Shown here: positions 4,613 to 60,680 of the stretch, one piece after another | How positions within the stretch are numbered: the first letter of the stretch is position 1 | Layout of the letters: each line of letters opens with the position of its first letter | From: Williamsia limnetica | GTDB lineage: Bacteria > Actinomycetota > Actinomycetes > Mycobacteriales > Mycobacteriaceae | Direction of reading: 5' to 3' | NCBI RefSeq assembly: GCF_003217475.1 | Contig: NZ_QJSP01000002.1 | Span: 372,001-436,000, forward strand | Length of the DNA: 64,000 nucleotides | Made by a program: the position numbers and the translations under genes | Notes under the pieces: model-generated | Database searches by the model: none | Seen by the model: only the letters and a program-made list of their open reading frames with translations | What the model was told of the DNA's origin: nothing

Positions 4613-5552
4613 GACCAACGCAATCGAGGTCGCCGACCTCCGGATGAGCTACCGCGGAGTGGACGCCCTCAAGGGGATCGATCTGGTGGTGCCCGCCGGC
4701 ACGGTGATGGGACTGCTCGGGCCCAACGGCGCCGGCAAGACGACCACCGTCAAGATCATCGCCACCCTGCTGTCCCCGACCTCGGGTTCGGTGCACATCA
4801 ACGGGATCGACGCACGGACCCACGCGCACCAGGTGCGCAGTCTCATCGGATTGTCCGGACAGCATGCCGTCGTCGACGACAACCTGACCGGTCACGAGAA
4901 CCTGGTGATGATCGCGAGACTGTCCGGTCTCGGCCGCACACAGGCCACCCGCCGATCGCGAGAACTGTTGGAGCAGTTCAACCTCGCGACCGCGGGTAAG
5001 CGCCGGGTTGCCACCTATTCGGGCGGGATGCGACGCAGGATCGACCTGGCAGGCGCGATCATCATCCGGCCACCGGTGCTGCTGCTCGACGAGCCGACTG
5101 CGAGTCTCGACCCCATCAGCAGGACCGAACTCTGGTCGGAGATCAAGGCTTTGGTGCACGACGGGACAAGCGTGCTGCTCACCACCCAATATCTCGAAGA
5201 AGCTGATCAACTCGCCCACGCGGTCACCGTGATCGTCGGTGGTGAAGTGGTCGCGCGCGGCACGCCCGCCGACCTGAAGTCGACACTGCGCACAGCGCAG
5301 GTGCGCTTGCTGCTGACCCGCGCGGATGACGCGCAGTCGGCCTCCGAGGTGATCACCCGGATGGACGGCGTGCAGTCCGTCGACGTCGACGACTTGGTGA
5401 TCACCTACTCGACCAATGACGCCGGCCGCAGTCTGACCCGCGCCATCGGCGCACTCGCCAGAGCAGGCATCGACGTCGCCGACTCGAGCGCCTCCGAACC
5501 GACCCTCGACGACGTCTTCGTGTCACTGGCCGGCAGCGCACCCCGTGGCTGA
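4593..5552 (+). CDS. ABC transporter ATP-binding protein, DrrA type
   Basis: A 319-aa nucleotide-binding subunit of a drug/lipid-exporting ABC transporter. Visible motifs are Walker A GPNGAGKTT (about residues 43-51), the signature region YSGGMRRR (about 142-149) in place of a canonical LSGGQ, Walker B VLLLDEPTA (about 162-170), and the C-terminal extension typical of DrrA. The start overlaps the preceding gene by 20 bases, and a GTG at 4605 is an alternative start. Its partner permease follows with an 8-base overlap. The likely role is energising export of the NRPS product or a cell-envelope lipid. Confidence 0.93.
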   Translation: MSLSVAETNAIEVADLRMSYRGVDALKGIDLVVPAGTVMGLLGPNGAGKTTTVKIIATLLSPTSGSVHINGIDARTHAHQVRSLIGLSGQHAVVDDNLTGHENLVMIARLSGLGRTQATRRSRELLEQFNLATAGKRRVATYSGGMRRRIDLAGAIIIRPPVLLLDEPTASLDPISRTELWSEIKALVHDGTSVLLTTQYLEEADQLAHAVTVIVGGEVVARGTPADLKSTLRTAQVRLLLTRADDAQSASEVITRMDGVQSVDVDDLVITYSTNDAGRSLTRAIGALARAGIDVADSSASEPTLDDVFVSLAGSAPRG

Positions 5553-6387
5553 CGTCGTGTCGGTGGCCGAACCGATCGTGGGGCCGCGACCACGGAACGC
5601 GAGCACGTTCCTCGTGGACTGCGAGGTGGTGGCGCTCAGGAACATTCGGACGATCCTTCGGAACTGGCAGATGATCCTCGGAGTCGTGCTGCAGCCCCTG
5701 ATGTTCGTGCTGCTGTTCTCCTACGTGTTCGGTGAGGCCCTCGGGGGTGATCGCTATCGGGAATTCCTCATCGGCGGCATCATGACGCAGACCGTCGCAT
5801 TCAACGCGGGTTTCACAGCTCTGGGTCTGGCCACCGACATCAAGAGCGGCATGGTCGACCGGTTCCGTGCGCTGCCCATGTCCCGGCTGGCCTTTGTGGT
5901 CGGCCGGTCGGTCTCGGACATCACGGTCAACGTCGTCGGTTTGATCGTGATGTCTCTCGCCGGACTCGCGATCGGGTGGCGCATCGACACCAGCTTCGGG
6001 GAGGCCCTTACCGGATACGCGATCGCGCTTCTGTTCGGCTTCGCACTCTCCTGGGTGGGTGCGGTGGTCGGGCTCGTCGCCGGATCGGCGGAAGCGGCCC
6101 AGAGCCTGCTGTTGACCGTCCTGTTCCCGCTGACCTTCATCTCATCGGCATTCATCCCTGCCGCGACGCTCCCGGGTCCGCTCCGGGCCGTCGCGAACTG
6201 GAACCCGGTGACCGCGGTCGCGCAAAGTCTTCGCGAATGCTTCGGGAACCCGGTGACGGTGAATCCGCTGCTCCCGAACTCGGTGACCTGGGCGTCGGAG
6301 AATCCACAGCTCTATTCGCTGGTGAGCATCTGTGTGCTATTGGTGGTGACCGTCCCGCTGGCGTCGTGGGCCCTGCGCCGCGTGTGA
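5545..6387 (+). CDS. ABC-2 type permease, DrrB type
   Basis: A 280-aa integral membrane protein with about six hydrophobic segments and the ABC-2/DrrB fold. It starts at GTG 5545 inside the end of the ATPase gene (GTGGCTGA), so the two are co-translated. The sequence around FVVGRSVSDITVNVVGL and the conserved NWNPVTA near the C-terminus are typical of DrrB permeases. It forms the membrane channel of the exporter and is the last gene of the NRPS - DUF4012 - DrrA - DrrB operon. The stop codon is followed immediately by a palindromic repeat that could end the transcript. Confidence 0.92.
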   Translation: MADVVSVAEPIVGPRPRNASTFLVDCEVVALRNIRTILRNWQMILGVVLQPLMFVLLFSYVFGEALGGDRYREFLIGGIMTQTVAFNAGFTALGLATDIKSGMVDRFRALPMSRLAFVVGRSVSDITVNVVGLIVMSLAGLAIGWRIDTSFGEALTGYAIALLFGFALSWVGAVVGLVAGSAEAAQSLLLTVLFPLTFISSAFIPAATLPGPLRAVANWNPVTAVAQSLRECFGNPVTVNPLLPNSVTWASENPQLYSLVSICVLLVVTVPLASWALRRV

Positions 6388-6388
6388 C

Positions 6389-6463
6389 CACCACATTCAG
6401 CCCCGTGTGCCCTGGTTGAGGGCACATAGCCCTCGGCGAGCTCAGGTGGGACCGAATGTGGTG
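6389..6463. repeat. Palindromic repeat family I, copy A (75 bp)
   Basis: Imperfect inverted ends: CACCACATTC at 6389-6398 pairs with GAATGTGGTG at 6454-6463. Inside is a perfect 8-bp hairpin, TGTGCCCT (6406-6413) with AGGGCACA (6419-6426), and an overlapping alternative GAGGGC-ACATA-GCCCTC hairpin. It begins 2 bases after the DrrB stop. Copies of the same length and layout lie at 7292-7366 and 60592-60667. It may act as a transcription terminator as well as being a dispersed repeat. Confidence 0.8.
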
Positions 6464-6496
6464 AGCATTGGGCCATGACCGCCCCCGCTGCGTCAG

Positions 6497-7312
6497 ATGT
6501 CCATGGACGTCGGGGTGTACAGCCGGGCCGAACTGCGAAAGCGAGGCCTCGATGGCTGGATTCTGCGCAAAGAGCTTGCAGGCGGCTCGCTGTTCAGCGT
6601 CCGTAACGGGTGGTACGCGGTCCCGAGCGCAGACACCGTTGTGGTGGAGGCGGTTCGTCTCGGGGGAGCGCTCAGCTGCGTGTCTGCCTTGCGTAAGCAC
6701 GGGCTCTGGGTCCCGTCCGGCTACAGCGGAGTACACGTGCGGGCGTCCAGGCATGGCAAGCAACAGCTGGCTCGGTCATGCCAGGGTCCGGGCCGCCCGG
6801 TTCCGGTGAGCACCGCCCTCGACCCCATCCCGATCGCACTCGGTTGCGCCTTTCGGTGCATGTCCGACGAGGACTGGATCGCGGGCTGCGATTCGGTCCT
6901 GAACACCCTGAGACTGTCGGTTCCGGCGCTGCAGGCCGAGATGGGCAGGATTCCGCAGAAAATGTACGATCTGATGAGCAAATGCGACCCGAACTCACAG
7001 TCGGGTACCGAGTCGCTGGCGCGGGTCAGATTGCGGGCGGCAGGTTTTTCCGTGCACGTCCAGCCGGATATCGCGGGGGTCGGCCGCGTGGACCTTCGAA
7101 TCGGCCGCCTCTTGATCGAATGCGACAGCGTCACCCATCACACGAGTCTGGAGAACTACCGCAACGATCGCCGCAGGGACAGGACCGCCTTGGTGAACAA
7201 GTGGATGACCATGCGGCTCACCTACGACGACGTCTTGTACGGCTGGGATGAGGTGATGGCAGACATCCGAGCCATCACCGACTCCGATCGTCACCGAATT
7301 CGGTCCGCGTAG
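6497..7312 (+). CDS. DUF559-type endonuclease-like protein with AbiEi-like N-terminal domain
   Basis: A 271-aa protein. The N-terminal half (about 1-95) resembles the AbiEi-type antitoxin winged-helix region, including the pattern of a basic helix followed by a strand ending NGWYAVP. The C-terminal part (about 185-265) has the DUF559/very-short-patch-repair-like nuclease pattern: VDLRIG, then LLIECDS, THH and a run of Arg/Asp, ending in a MRLTYDDVL strand. The Asp...Glu-x-Asp arrangement is that of PD-(D/E)XK nucleases. It is flanked on both sides by copies of the same 75-bp palindrome, and its last codons lie inside the downstream copy. A second gene of this class lies at 39751-40707. Actual nuclease or regulatory activity is untested. 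Confidence 0.75.
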   Translation: MSMDVGVYSRAELRKRGLDGWILRKELAGGSLFSVRNGWYAVPSADTVVVEAVRLGGALSCVSALRKHGLWVPSGYSGVHVRASRHGKQQLARSCQGPGRPVPVSTALDPIPIALGCAFRCMSDEDWIAGCDSVLNTLRLSVPALQAEMGRIPQKMYDLMSKCDPNSQSGTESLARVRLRAAGFSVHVQPDIAGVGRVDLRIGRLLIECDSVTHHTSLENYRNDRRRDRTALVNKWMTMRLTYDDVLYGWDEVMADIRAITDSDRHRIRSA

Positions 7313-7366
7313 GGGTGACCGAGGGAACATAGCCCTTGGTGGCCGCGTACGGGACTGAATGTGGTG
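7292..7366. repeat. Palindromic repeat family I, copy B (75 bp)
   Basis: Same orientation and length as copy A. From GAGGG to GAATGTGGTG both copies are exactly 46 bases, with the shared core ACATAGCCCT. The left arm (CACCGAATTCGGTCC) overlaps the last codons and stop of the DUF559-type gene. It lies between two convergent genes. Confidence 0.78.
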
Positions 7367-7368
7367 GG

Positions 7369-8577
7369 TTACCTGGGCACTACCTCGGATGGGGTGGTGG
7401 GTGAGGTCGTGGACGCTGACGGCGTACTCGAGGTAGACCGCGACGGCGGTGTGTAATCCGGCAGGTTCGGAGCCGGCGGACGGTCGGAGTTGCCGGTCGG
7501 TATCCGCGGGTTGGGGACGGGTCGACGGGTGGTGGTGGTCTCCACGACCACGGTCTCCACAGTGACCTCGGCGACCTCGGCGACCTCGGCGACCTCGGTG
7601 GTTGTCGGGGTGACAGCGGTGGTCGACGACGGCGCCCGGCTCGGCGAGGTGGATTTCGGCACCGAGCTGGGTGTCTGTGTCTTGGTCGGCGACGACACAC
7701 TCGTCGAGAACGGTGCGACGACATCGGCGTTCCTGGGGCTCTCTGACCCGCCGTTCTTGATCAGGTACGCCGATCCGCCGATGAGTGCCGCGGAGACGGC
7801 CAGACCCGCTGCGCCGGCGAGAAGCATCGTGCGCTTCTTGCCCGCGCCTCCCGCAGCAGCGACGGGCGGTGCGACCTTGTTCGACTTCGTGAGGGCCGCA
7901 GCGCCGTGGGCGACGGCGAACTCACCGTGCTCGATGGGCTGGACGGCCAGGCCGGTGGCCGCACCCAGCGTGCTCGCCAGGTGTGGGATTTCGGACCCGG
8001 CGCCTGCCGAGGCGATCATCTCCACGTCTCGGCCGCGACCGGGCAGTTTGTTCATCGAGTTGGCGACGGCGGTGGAACCCGCCATCTCCTGCACGGGTGG
8101 GGTCCCGAACGGCAGGGTGGCGGTGTCGACGACCGACTCCGTCAGTGGATCGACGAGCACCATCGGCTGCACCGCTGCGGTGTGGCCTGCGCTGTCGACG
8201 TTGACCACCAGGACCTTGCTCATCCCGGCGAACTGGCGGGCGGCGATCACGGCCACAGCGGTGGCGACCGAGGTGATGCTGGCGGCCAGCAGCCAGCCCG
8301 GCACCGCGTCCTCATCGTCGTCATCGGTCTGCGACGAAGTGCGCCGGCGTGCCTGGTCGAGCGCGATTCGGATGGCCGGGTCGGCGCATGCGATGCCGAC
8401 CGAGTCGATGGTCTCCGGGGCTGAACGGATGAGTCGGTCGATGGTGCCGACGAGGTCGGTGTCCTGGGTGAACGGGATGCGGTTCTGCGCCAGCAACTCG
8501 CCGCTGTTGCCGTCGATGATCACCGACAGGATCTCACCTGCATCGATGGAGATCCCCAGGACGACATCGTTGCGCAT
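7369..8577 (-). CDS. Membrane protein with actin-like (ASKHA/DUF7159-like) N-domain and Ser/Thr/Pro-rich tail
   Basis: 402 aa from ATG 8577, chosen because AAGGAAG lies just upstream; the open frame extends further but without a better signal. Residues 1-220 resemble the actin-like domain of actinobacterial DUF7159-type proteins: VVLGISIDAGEI at the N-terminus, alternating strands, and a DDDDED insertion. One membrane segment follows (about 258-280), then a low-complexity Ser/Thr/Pro-rich segment containing a VAE tripeptide repeat encoded by a 9-bp tandem repeat (7562-7597). The function is unknown. The topology suggests a cytoplasmic sensing or ATP-binding-like domain joined to a cell-wall-spanning tail. 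Confidence 0.7.
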   Translation of the reverse strand: MRNDVVLGISIDAGEILSVIIDGNSGELLAQNRIPFTQDTDLVGTIDRLIRSAPETIDSVGIACADPAIRIALDQARRRTSSQTDDDDEDAVPGWLLAASITSVATAVAVIAARQFAGMSKVLVVNVDSAGHTAAVQPMVLVDPLTESVVDTATLPFGTPPVQEMAGSTAVANSMNKLPGRGRDVEMIASAGAGSEIPHLASTLGAATGLAVQPIEHGEFAVAHGAAALTKSNKVAPPVAAAGGAGKKRTMLLAGAAGLAVSAALIGGSAYLIKNGGSESPRNADVVAPFSTSVSSPTKTQTPSSVPKSTSPSRAPSSTTAVTPTTTEVAEVAEVAEVTVETVVVETTTTRRPVPNPRIPTGNSDRPPAPNLPDYTPPSRSTSSTPSASTTSPTTPSEVVPR

Positions 8578-8738
8578 TGACTTCCTTCTTTCCCAGGTAC
8601 TGATCGTGCATGTTAGCGCTCGGCAGAAGCGAAAATCGACGTCGCCCGACGAACGATCGACATCGCGGGAAGATAAAAGCTCCCTGTGAATCTTGGTCAG
8701 GGGTGTCCAAGTCGTCCGTGTGTTGGCACTATGGACTG

Positions 8739-8894
8739 GTGATTGCGCTTGTGATAACCGTCGCAGTGGTGGTGTGGATTGCCATCTCTGTGGTTGTCGC
8801 GGTGCTGGTGGGTCGCGCGATACGACTGCGCGACGCCAGAGACTCCCGGGCCGGGTCTCCTGATGGTGGCGACGTGAGATCCAAAGCCTCCTGA
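8739..8894 (+). CDS. Small single-pass membrane protein (tentative)
   Basis: A 51-aa open frame from GTG 8739 encodes one long hydrophobic segment (about residues 2-27) followed by a basic-acidic tail (RAIRLRDARDSR). GTG 8718 is another possible start. No clear ribosome-binding site is visible and no family is recognised. It lies in the gap between the divergent 7369-8577 and 9005-9979 genes, so it could be real or chance. Confidence 0.35.
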   Translation: MIALVITVAVVVWIAISVVVAVLVGRAIRLRDARDSRAGSPDGGDVRSKAS

Positions 8895-9004
8895 TCGGCG
8901 AAAGTCCAGGTTGACCCTGCTCTTTTGCTGCAAAATGCTGCATACTGTCCGAAAGGTGATCTTGAAACTCACTTTCGATGGTCTAGGGATACCAGGGGTC
9001 GGGA

Positions 9005-60591: not shown

Positions 60592-60667
60592 CCGCCGAAT
60601 TCCGCCCCCTGCCGGGCGTCCGGGGGCAACGCGCCCTCGGTGGTTGGCGTAGGGGCCGAATCTGGTG
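60592..60667. repeat. Palindromic repeat family I, copy C (76 bp)
   Basis: The most diverged copy: left arm CCGCCGAATTC (60592-60602), hairpin GGGC-AACGC-GCCC and right end GGGGCCGAATCTGGTG. From GGGGG (60622) to the end it is 46 bases, exactly as in copies A and B. It begins 2 bases after the glycerate kinase stop and lies before the convergent yajQ. Confidence 0.7.
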
Positions 60668-60680
60668 TGGAAATCTACTG

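Follow-up and report, generated by a model that had tools for sequence, protein, structure and literature searches.

We analysed a window of 64,000 nucleotides (the whole stretch of DNA under study, G000:C2:372001-436000) from the 6.35 Mb source genome of Williamsia limnetica, called G000, in which a gene with a nuclease-like C-terminal part is enclosed by two palindromes, while a third palindrome of the same family stands on its own (Table 1). The upstream palindrome begins 1 base past the stop codon of an ABC-2 membrane gene and the downstream one stops 2 bases short of the end of the opposing frame; as this downstream neighbour lies on the opposite strand, the palindrome-gene-palindrome unit occupies a gap between convergent genes. 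Directly 3' of the orthologue of the ABC-2 membrane gene, neither the gene nor a palindrome was present in G003 and G005, the two genomes read at this place. The solo copy is located directly past a stop codon and, judged by eye, the next gene apparently heads towards it. The comparison set consisted of nine Williamsia genomes (G000 to G008, source included, G004 being W. soli), and the class letters A to E used for the palindrome arms are our own naming. The preliminary description had proposed a search in Gordonia, a genus close to the actual one.

Table 1. Features of the locus and of the solo palindrome (positions within the window)
Feature	Position	Strand	Description
ABC-2 type transporter membrane protein, upstream neighbour	5545..6387	+	assigned by Pfam scan
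Upstream 75-bp palindrome	6389..6463	none	class A arms CACCACATTC...GAATGTGGTG
Gene for 271-aa protein	6497..7312	+	weakly AbiEi-like N-terminal part and predicted Vsr/EDxHD-like nuclease C-terminal domain
Predicted nuclease domain, residues 168-266	6998..7294	+	invariant residues in alignment, structure match
Downstream 75-bp palindrome	7292..7366	none	covers the final 21 bases of the frame (7292-7312)
Downstream neighbour	7369..8943	-	opposing frame, without Pfam match
Solo palindrome of the same family	60593..60667	none	model match 60592-60668, without the gene

The preliminary description had placed around the gene two palindromes of 75 bp in the same orientation, of which the second overlaps the last codons, with 46 bases alignable without gaps, and all of this was recovered. 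The ungapped block of 46 nt (6418-6463 / 7321-7366) is 76% identical between the two flanking copies, which are alike at 49/77 columns, and complementarity between the outer arms (6388-6406 and 7349-7367) reaches 95%. As a control, 911 random spans of gene size were drawn from loci of the named relatives described below; their best upstream and downstream 'palindromes' agreed at no more than 45/77 columns (99th percentile 37), so the likeness of the window pair exceeds chance. The distance from the upstream palindrome to the frame, previously given as 26 bases, had to be corrected to 33 bases with the ATG at 6497. Both flanking copies belong to the training set of our model R1, and their low R1 E-values are therefore not independent, while the third window copy (60592-60668) lies outside that set. 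An Rfam scan of positions 6200-7600 gave no family near threshold, the lone match being sot2652 with 16.5 bits vs 61.

Sequence comparison of the window protein gave a match to MTES_1575 REase (PF18741) with 23.6 bits, below the cut-off of 38.2, no match to AbiEi_4 or DUF559 (PF04480) at E ≤ 0.01, no match in NCBIfam, just weak AbiEi matches in PADLOC, and no credible relative in a PDB sequence search (four matches, E 0.27 to 0.79). Among 32 relatives, MTES_1575 was matched by 30, AbiEi_4 by 14 and DUF559 by 9 at E ≤ 0.01. An AlphaFold2 model built on 32 sequences (pLDDT 87, pTM 0.84) gave a predicted C-terminal domain resembling I-Bth0305I (3r3p_A; Z 12.1, rmsd 2.8 Å, 95 residues), a Neisseria endonuclease-like protein (Z 11.7) and Vsr (Z 11.0), with the I-Bth0305I and Vsr alignments spanning 95-98 residues. 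Foldseek returned no match at E ≤ 0.001, its best ones being I-Bth0305I (1.3e-3) and AbiEi (6y8q, 1.3e-2). On the strength of this model the C-terminal fold is predicted to be Vsr/I-Bth0305I-like and the N-terminus weakly AbiEi-like. Residues E172, D199, E208, D210 and H215 are invariant across the 32 aligned sequences, and from the DUF559/Vsr motifs we take them to be catalytic. The gene family is under purifying selection: dN/dS of the window gene equals 0.14 and 0.15 against two orthologues, and values of 0.13-0.27 were obtained for six of seven gene pairs, with 0.51 in one nearly unchanged pair.

The five nuclease-like genes of the source genome carry four kinds of arms. The outer box is CACCACATTCGGCCCC in class A (window gene), GCGATCTTTGTCCCC or GCGATTTTGTCCCC in class E (G000:C13), CCCTGAGATCGTCC and variants in class B (G000:C6), and CCCTGAAAACYGKCA in class C (G000:C5 and G000:C8). 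At their start, class A arms read CACCACATTC, class B arms CCCTGAGATC, class C arms CCCTGAAAAC and class D arms CACCACGATC, and in none of these four is there a GTAG tag at the repeat end. The two flanks match each other at 93% over 76 nt in G000:C5 and at 86% in G000:C8. Arms differ among paralogues and agree between the flanks of a single gene, and the same was noticed in Gordonia and other genera: in the 33 genes with flanks alike at ≥40/77 (pooled scan below) an upstream arm agreed with its own partner flank at 16.3/20 vs 9.75 with the flanks of other genes, and the own partner was best or tied for 24 of them. Protein identity tracks arm identity as well (Mantel r 0.52, reached in 0/2000 permutations). 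The G000:C6 gene is class B by its downstream arms and its site, and it is placed in the tree apart from the other class B genes and near class C (support 0.86); class E groups with class A with support of 0.87.

The palindromes have the layout box - spacer - central stem - spacer - box, and by eye their length stays near 75 bp even in classes with few letters in common. Their two halves covary: 38 copies, which had been chosen as palindromes, contain 212 double changes vs 109 after shuffling and 72 to 88 in slid controls, and the variable spacers covary too (82 double changes vs 57 expected). Outer, inner and direct arm pairs are about equally alike (14.5 to 15.0 of 20, in a comparison of 72 genes, three above the 69 left by stricter duplicate removal), which means that the unit is without special outer ends, and an inverted-end (TIR) model was rejected. 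Mismatches on the gene strand are more often G-T (126) than A-C (82); such an excess hints at a role of the palindrome as RNA, unless strand composition is its cause.

Association of gene and palindrome extends well beyond the window. Among close homologues in the nine Williamsia genomes (n=22), many of whose loci supplied training sequences for the palindrome model, both flanks were matched at E ≤ 0.01 in 19/22 and the downstream flank alone in 3/22. These three are G000:C6, G006:C47, whose contig begins inside the upstream region, and G008:C5:1004628, with an upstream palindrome that is readable but decayed. Besides the window gene, the source genome has four additional paralogues of 60-69% protein identity, three of them flanked by palindromes on both sides and that on G000:C6 downstream alone. 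The named relatives comprise 31 mostly 10-kb loci from Williamsia, Gordonia and one record titled Kitasatospora; at E ≤ 0.01 the model matched both sides in 20, a single side in 6 and neither in 5 of them, with 10/31 having supplied training sequences. Ten of the 21 non-training loci are two-sided, including four (L040, L043, L044, L064) that are orthologues of training loci. Five match sites in the named loci are distant from the gene, and one further is a second copy close behind it. The enrichment of the palindrome at nuclease-like genes, proposed beforehand from the window locus, is thus borne out in both sets. Away from the gene, the locus of Gordonia asplenii (L060:10466-10720) contains palindrome copies in tandem with a 90-b spacing, two matched at E ≤ 0.01 and a third at 0.18.

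In a wider survey of 401 family genomes, a homologue at E ≤ 1e-25 was found in 93, spanning 9 of 31 genera. We picked 40 family loci across genera before their flanks were looked at; in 20 of them, across six genus groups, the flanks are alike at ≥42/77, above the 99th percentile (37) of the 911 random spans, and the remaining 20 fall below this mark. When own, named and family loci were pooled (76 candidates, 7 duplicates dropped, 69 left), 33/69 genes had flanks alike at ≥40/77, a low count because the scan took odd-centred palindromes only and missed even-centred cases; the 36 genes under the mark include some with one side missing or with an even centre. A plasmid search gave four records, three copies from Tsukamurella and one from Actinomyces. 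The homologue on a Tsukamurella tyrosinosolvens plasmid (L257:1768-3050) is 38% identical and carries its own arms on both flanking palindromes (23 and 25 of 36 pairs, flanks alike at 44/77), though only the last part of the frame is annotated as a gene in the gene table. The other two Tsukamurella copies showed no clear two-sided palindromes, and R1 at E ≤ 1 gave no match in any of the three. One match (28%) came from a phage collection and one partial match (38%) from viral contigs; with these lone distant matches and the few plasmid records, a phage or plasmid origin was rejected.

In the W. soli unit (L312:10600-12400, equal to G004:C22:324600-326400) the downstream palindrome is followed by a gene that we labelled by eye, from its sequence, as flavin-monooxygenase-like, and then by a third palindrome differing from the unit's downstream one at 3/75 bases. 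Near-identical palindromes thus enclose a passenger gene.

The Vsr match of the predicted structure could also mean that the protein simply serves in repair or defence, in Vsr-like mismatch repair or as a restriction nuclease, the palindromes being no more than markers or passengers. A Caulobacter DUF559 protein is reported in PMC12907096 to be Vsr-like and to have a link with a cytosine methyltransferase. We consider this very unlikely for the Williamsia genes, as up to five close paralogues occur in one genome with four of them palindrome-flanked on both sides. To our knowledge, gene-palindrome pairing is no part of Vsr.

Palindromes of the family are much more widespread than the gene. The model matched at least 87 sites in G000 and from at least 34 to at least 80 in the eight other genomes (two strands, gene flanks included, 150 candidates scored per genome, hence likely lower bounds). 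We read 67 solo loci, comprising most of the solos that the model listed and two others; the third window copy comes on top of these. A nuclease-like gene was found in the fetched stretch of 0/67 solo loci (tblastn E ≤ 1e-3), and according to a codon-usage gene caller 0/67 solos lie inside called genes. Of these solos 34 are between convergent genes, 25 between tandem and 5 between divergent ones, and 3 are at contig edges; the gaps of the window number 9 convergent, 25 tandem and 9 divergent. With so many solos lacking a nuclease-like gene, the palindrome is also spread through intergenic regions.

The avoidance of genes and the preference for convergent gaps, together with the G-T over A-C excess on the gene strand and an unrelated nearly perfect hairpin that G001 has at the G000:C13 site, are what one would expect if the host kept the palindromes as bidirectional terminators or as elements of RNA 3' ends, and the nuclease gene were there as convergent gaps tolerate insertions. 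Such a role may exist, alone or in addition to that favoured below, but we regard this reading as rather improbable: it leaves unexplained why each paralogue has private arms that recur on its two flanks and among the solos of its genome, and why the length is nearly fixed at 75 bp, and by eye no T run follows the stem in the right flanks of nine solos. A regulatory function is less probable still. If the palindromes were operators through which an AbiEi-like regulator controls its own gene and a set of others, one could understand the AbiEi_4 matches in 14/32 relatives and the position of the upstream palindrome close ahead of the start codon, and promoter binding of AbiEi antitoxins through inverted repeats is reported in PMC7319586. 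The second copy, however, overlaps or trails the stop codon, solos prefer 3' ends to promoters (34 convergent vs 5 divergent), and no AbiEii toxin adjoins the window gene, the ABC ATPase having drawn just a generic AAA match.

Pattern counts by class, which include gene flanks and gave 0 in a reversed-pattern control, connect solos with particular genes. Class A copies number 14 in G000, 12 in G004, 8 in G006, 7 in G007, 1 each in G003 and G005, and 0 in G001, G002 and G008; class B copies number 5 in G000, 3 in G001, 11 in G004, 10 in G006, 15 in G007 and 0 in the other four; in case of class C the numbers from G000 to G008 are 9, 5, 1, 2, 6, 2, 4, 4 and 4. Class A and B copies occur essentially only where the matching gene exists, in a comparison in which class presence is confounded with clade, since the nine genomes make up few clades and do not provide nine independent tests: the class A gene is present exactly in G000, G004, G006 and G007, and the class B gene exactly in G000, G001, G004, G006 and G007 (the G000 gene standing apart in the tree). 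The lone class A match in G003 flanks the class D gene of that genome. Class C is an exception, with 1, 2, 2, 4 and 4 copies still present in the five genomes without a class C gene; G006 and G007 each have two of these copies at sites that bear the gene in relatives. Dispersal at the level of classes is established for A, B and C only. A finer correspondence was noticed in the base after the class B box, which in part follows the resident gene: solos have C throughout or nearly so in G001 and G004, G for the most part in G000, and either A or G in G007, but in G006 most of them have C where the resident gene has A.

Alleles with one palindrome, anticipated from the window locus, were found at two sites. 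At the G000:C5 site G004 has palindrome-gene-palindrome, and G006 and G007 have one class C palindrome; the direction of change is ambiguous. At the G000:C8 site G001 has the whole unit, G004, G006 and G007 have a single palindrome, and G008 retains the gene with a downstream palindrome and a decayed upstream one. Here gene loss leaving one palindrome is the simplest history and is favoured over insertion into a palindrome. The units look mostly old and inherited at fixed sites rather than freshly mobile. As for the small mobile unit first proposed, the enrichment and the one-palindrome alleles agree with it, whereas the mostly old, fixed-site inheritance does not.

Solo sites also differ between genomes. 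Compared with G006, whose site is empty and shows no trace of the gene, the nearly perfect G000 solo L133 is an insertion of 78 nt; this equals 75 + 3, with flanking triplets that are not identical (one clean junction). L138 is missing from G004, where a GTGGTG remnant is present, and the L147 site holds a class C palindrome in G000, a class B one in G004 and none in G005. Such junction reads are limited to sites with usable flanks, and for L143 the single locus tried was no match. In G006 and G007 (L252, L253) an unrelated stretch of ~215 b rich in CTCGCTC-like words replaces the palindrome of the L147 site. One solo (G001:C7) agrees at 72/77 positions with a flanking palindrome of the G001:C12 unit, and another (G007:C35) at 69/77 with one of the G007:C31 unit; near-identical solos at unrelated places indicate that palindromes do reach new sites by copying.

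Single palindromes at sites that bear the unit in relatives would equally arise if solos were relics of lost palindrome-gene-palindrome units, comparable to solo LTRs, and the whole unit alone had ever moved. This is a variant of our preferred reading and compatible with it. We find it doubtful, though not to the degree of the terminator or operator readings, as solos are far more numerous than units and the empty L133 site in G006 has no gene trace, even if insertion followed by deletion may have occurred there.

The C13 site has a history of its own. It carries a class E gene in one clade and a class D gene in another, which are not grouped in the tree. The class E gene has dS of 0.04 between G000 and G007, vs 0.78 for the class A gene of that pair, which suggests recent exchange of the C13 segment; judging from these sequences, the class E segment of G000, G006 and G007 was likely exchanged recently at this site. 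At the corresponding place in G001 (L242, G001:C6:199500-202000) the same flanks enclose an unrelated nearly perfect hairpin without any palindrome of the family. Palindromes as boundaries of recombination were considered and rejected: identity jumps of ≥8 points accompany 10/37 palindromes vs 22/220 controls, a modest excess among pairs that are not independent, and the high-identity stretch left of the C13 unit is common to G004, which is without the unit.

Taken together, we favour a two-part element that works in a REPIN-RAYT-like manner, in which the palindromes would be the cognate sites of a nuclease unrelated to RAYT; we give this a probability of about 0.58. Its first part would be the gene for a DNA-binding nuclease and its second a population of 75-bp dyad-symmetric palindromes, the presumed cognate sites. 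That the nuclease acts on the palindromes we infer from the co-variation of protein and arms. The protein may dimerise on the outer boxes through its N-terminal domain, and its Vsr/I-Bth0305I-like C-terminal domain may cut within the palindrome. The gene has a direct copy of its own palindrome on either side. A cut, or recombination of these copies with each other, would delete the gene and leave one palindrome, and a single palindrome that is cut could be repaired from a palindrome-gene-palindrome copy, by which the gene would be restored. Solos spread by copying into further intergenic sites, in which the nuclease may assist. As box and nuclease change in step, paralogues within one genome have palindrome populations of their own. 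In its anatomy the element would resemble a REPtron (a RAYT gene with its REP/REPIN repeats) whose HUH transposase is replaced by a PD-(D/E)XK-fold nuclease. More tentatively, and with less than even odds, we propose that this is a repeat-nuclease element of a kind unseen before, in which a Vsr/EDxHD nuclease with a winged-helix-like box reader maintains and spreads 75-bp palindromes throughout the genome and shuttles its own gene into and out of them, through cuts in the palindrome that are repaired from another copy. Such an element might extend to cargo, as in case of the monooxygenase-like gene of W. soli.

Genes of this type are commonly annotated as hypothetical or as 'type IV AbiEi antitoxin', the latter label being attached to 2/3 Tsukamurella plasmid copies, and we know of no tested role for them; the private palindrome provides a concrete candidate substrate. 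Should the nuclease indeed act on its palindromes, at least two unrelated ways of keeping short palindromic repeats would exist in bacteria, and the upkeep of extragenic palindromes could be tested in a second system. The naturally diverged nuclease-site pairs (at least 8 box types by eye) could be used for decoding recognition. In the open PMC papers searched we found no account of this nuclease-palindrome pairing, so that the association of enzyme and genomic repeat appears to be undescribed.

Several known systems share some of these features. MITE and IS elements likewise combine short many-copy inverted-repeat elements with an autonomous-looking unit, but the sole gene of the unit described here is of no known transposase type. 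AbiEi antitoxins show weak similarity to the N-terminal part; here a nuclease domain follows, and AbiEii is absent among the three window neighbours scanned (the ABC transporter pair and the protein without Pfam match), for which reason a toxin-antitoxin pair within the window was rejected. With Vsr and DUF559 proteins the window protein shares its predicted C-terminal fold, and 9/32 relatives match DUF559; it differs in the additional N-terminal domain, the palindromes on both flanks and the several paralogues, and the Pfam scan of the immediate window neighbours gave no methyltransferase. In case of EDxHD homing endonucleases, I-Bth0305I is the nearest solved structure to the predicted catalytic domain (Z 12.1). 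It dimerises on a target of nearly 60 bp according to a passage of PMC3943268, which is similar to the distance between the two boxes of a palindrome. The window gene, unlike a homing endonuclease gene, lies between two whole palindromes with no split site: single-palindrome alleles exist, yet occupied alleles hold two whole palindromes.

The closest system in its working is REPIN-RAYT. According to PMC3733652, RAYT genes have REPs on their flanks, further copies of the matching class are dispersed chiefly 3' of genes, and genomes with several REP classes have repeat-specific RAYT genes; long persistence of REPIN populations is reported in PMC8049555. In the same way we observe a gene between copies of its own palindrome class, dispersed intergenic copies, class-specific genes and long-lasting repeat populations. 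The enzymes differ, a predicted Vsr-like nuclease here and an HUH transposase in REPIN-RAYT, as do the repeats, single palindromes of ~75 bp here and REPs of 20-40 bp with GTAG or CGTC ends. PF01797 (HUH/Y1 transposase, RAYT-type) was found in 0/9 Williamsia genomes, with a control positive in 5/14, and RAYT-driven mobility of the palindromes in Williamsia was rejected; membership in the REPIN-RAYT system thus fails on the defining transposase. CGTC REPs are said, in a passage of PMC3733652, to be without a dedicated transposase, and they might be candidate partners of DUF559 nucleases. If the repeat-nuclease element proposed here is real, REPIN-RAYT would have an independent counterpart that does without an HUH enzyme.
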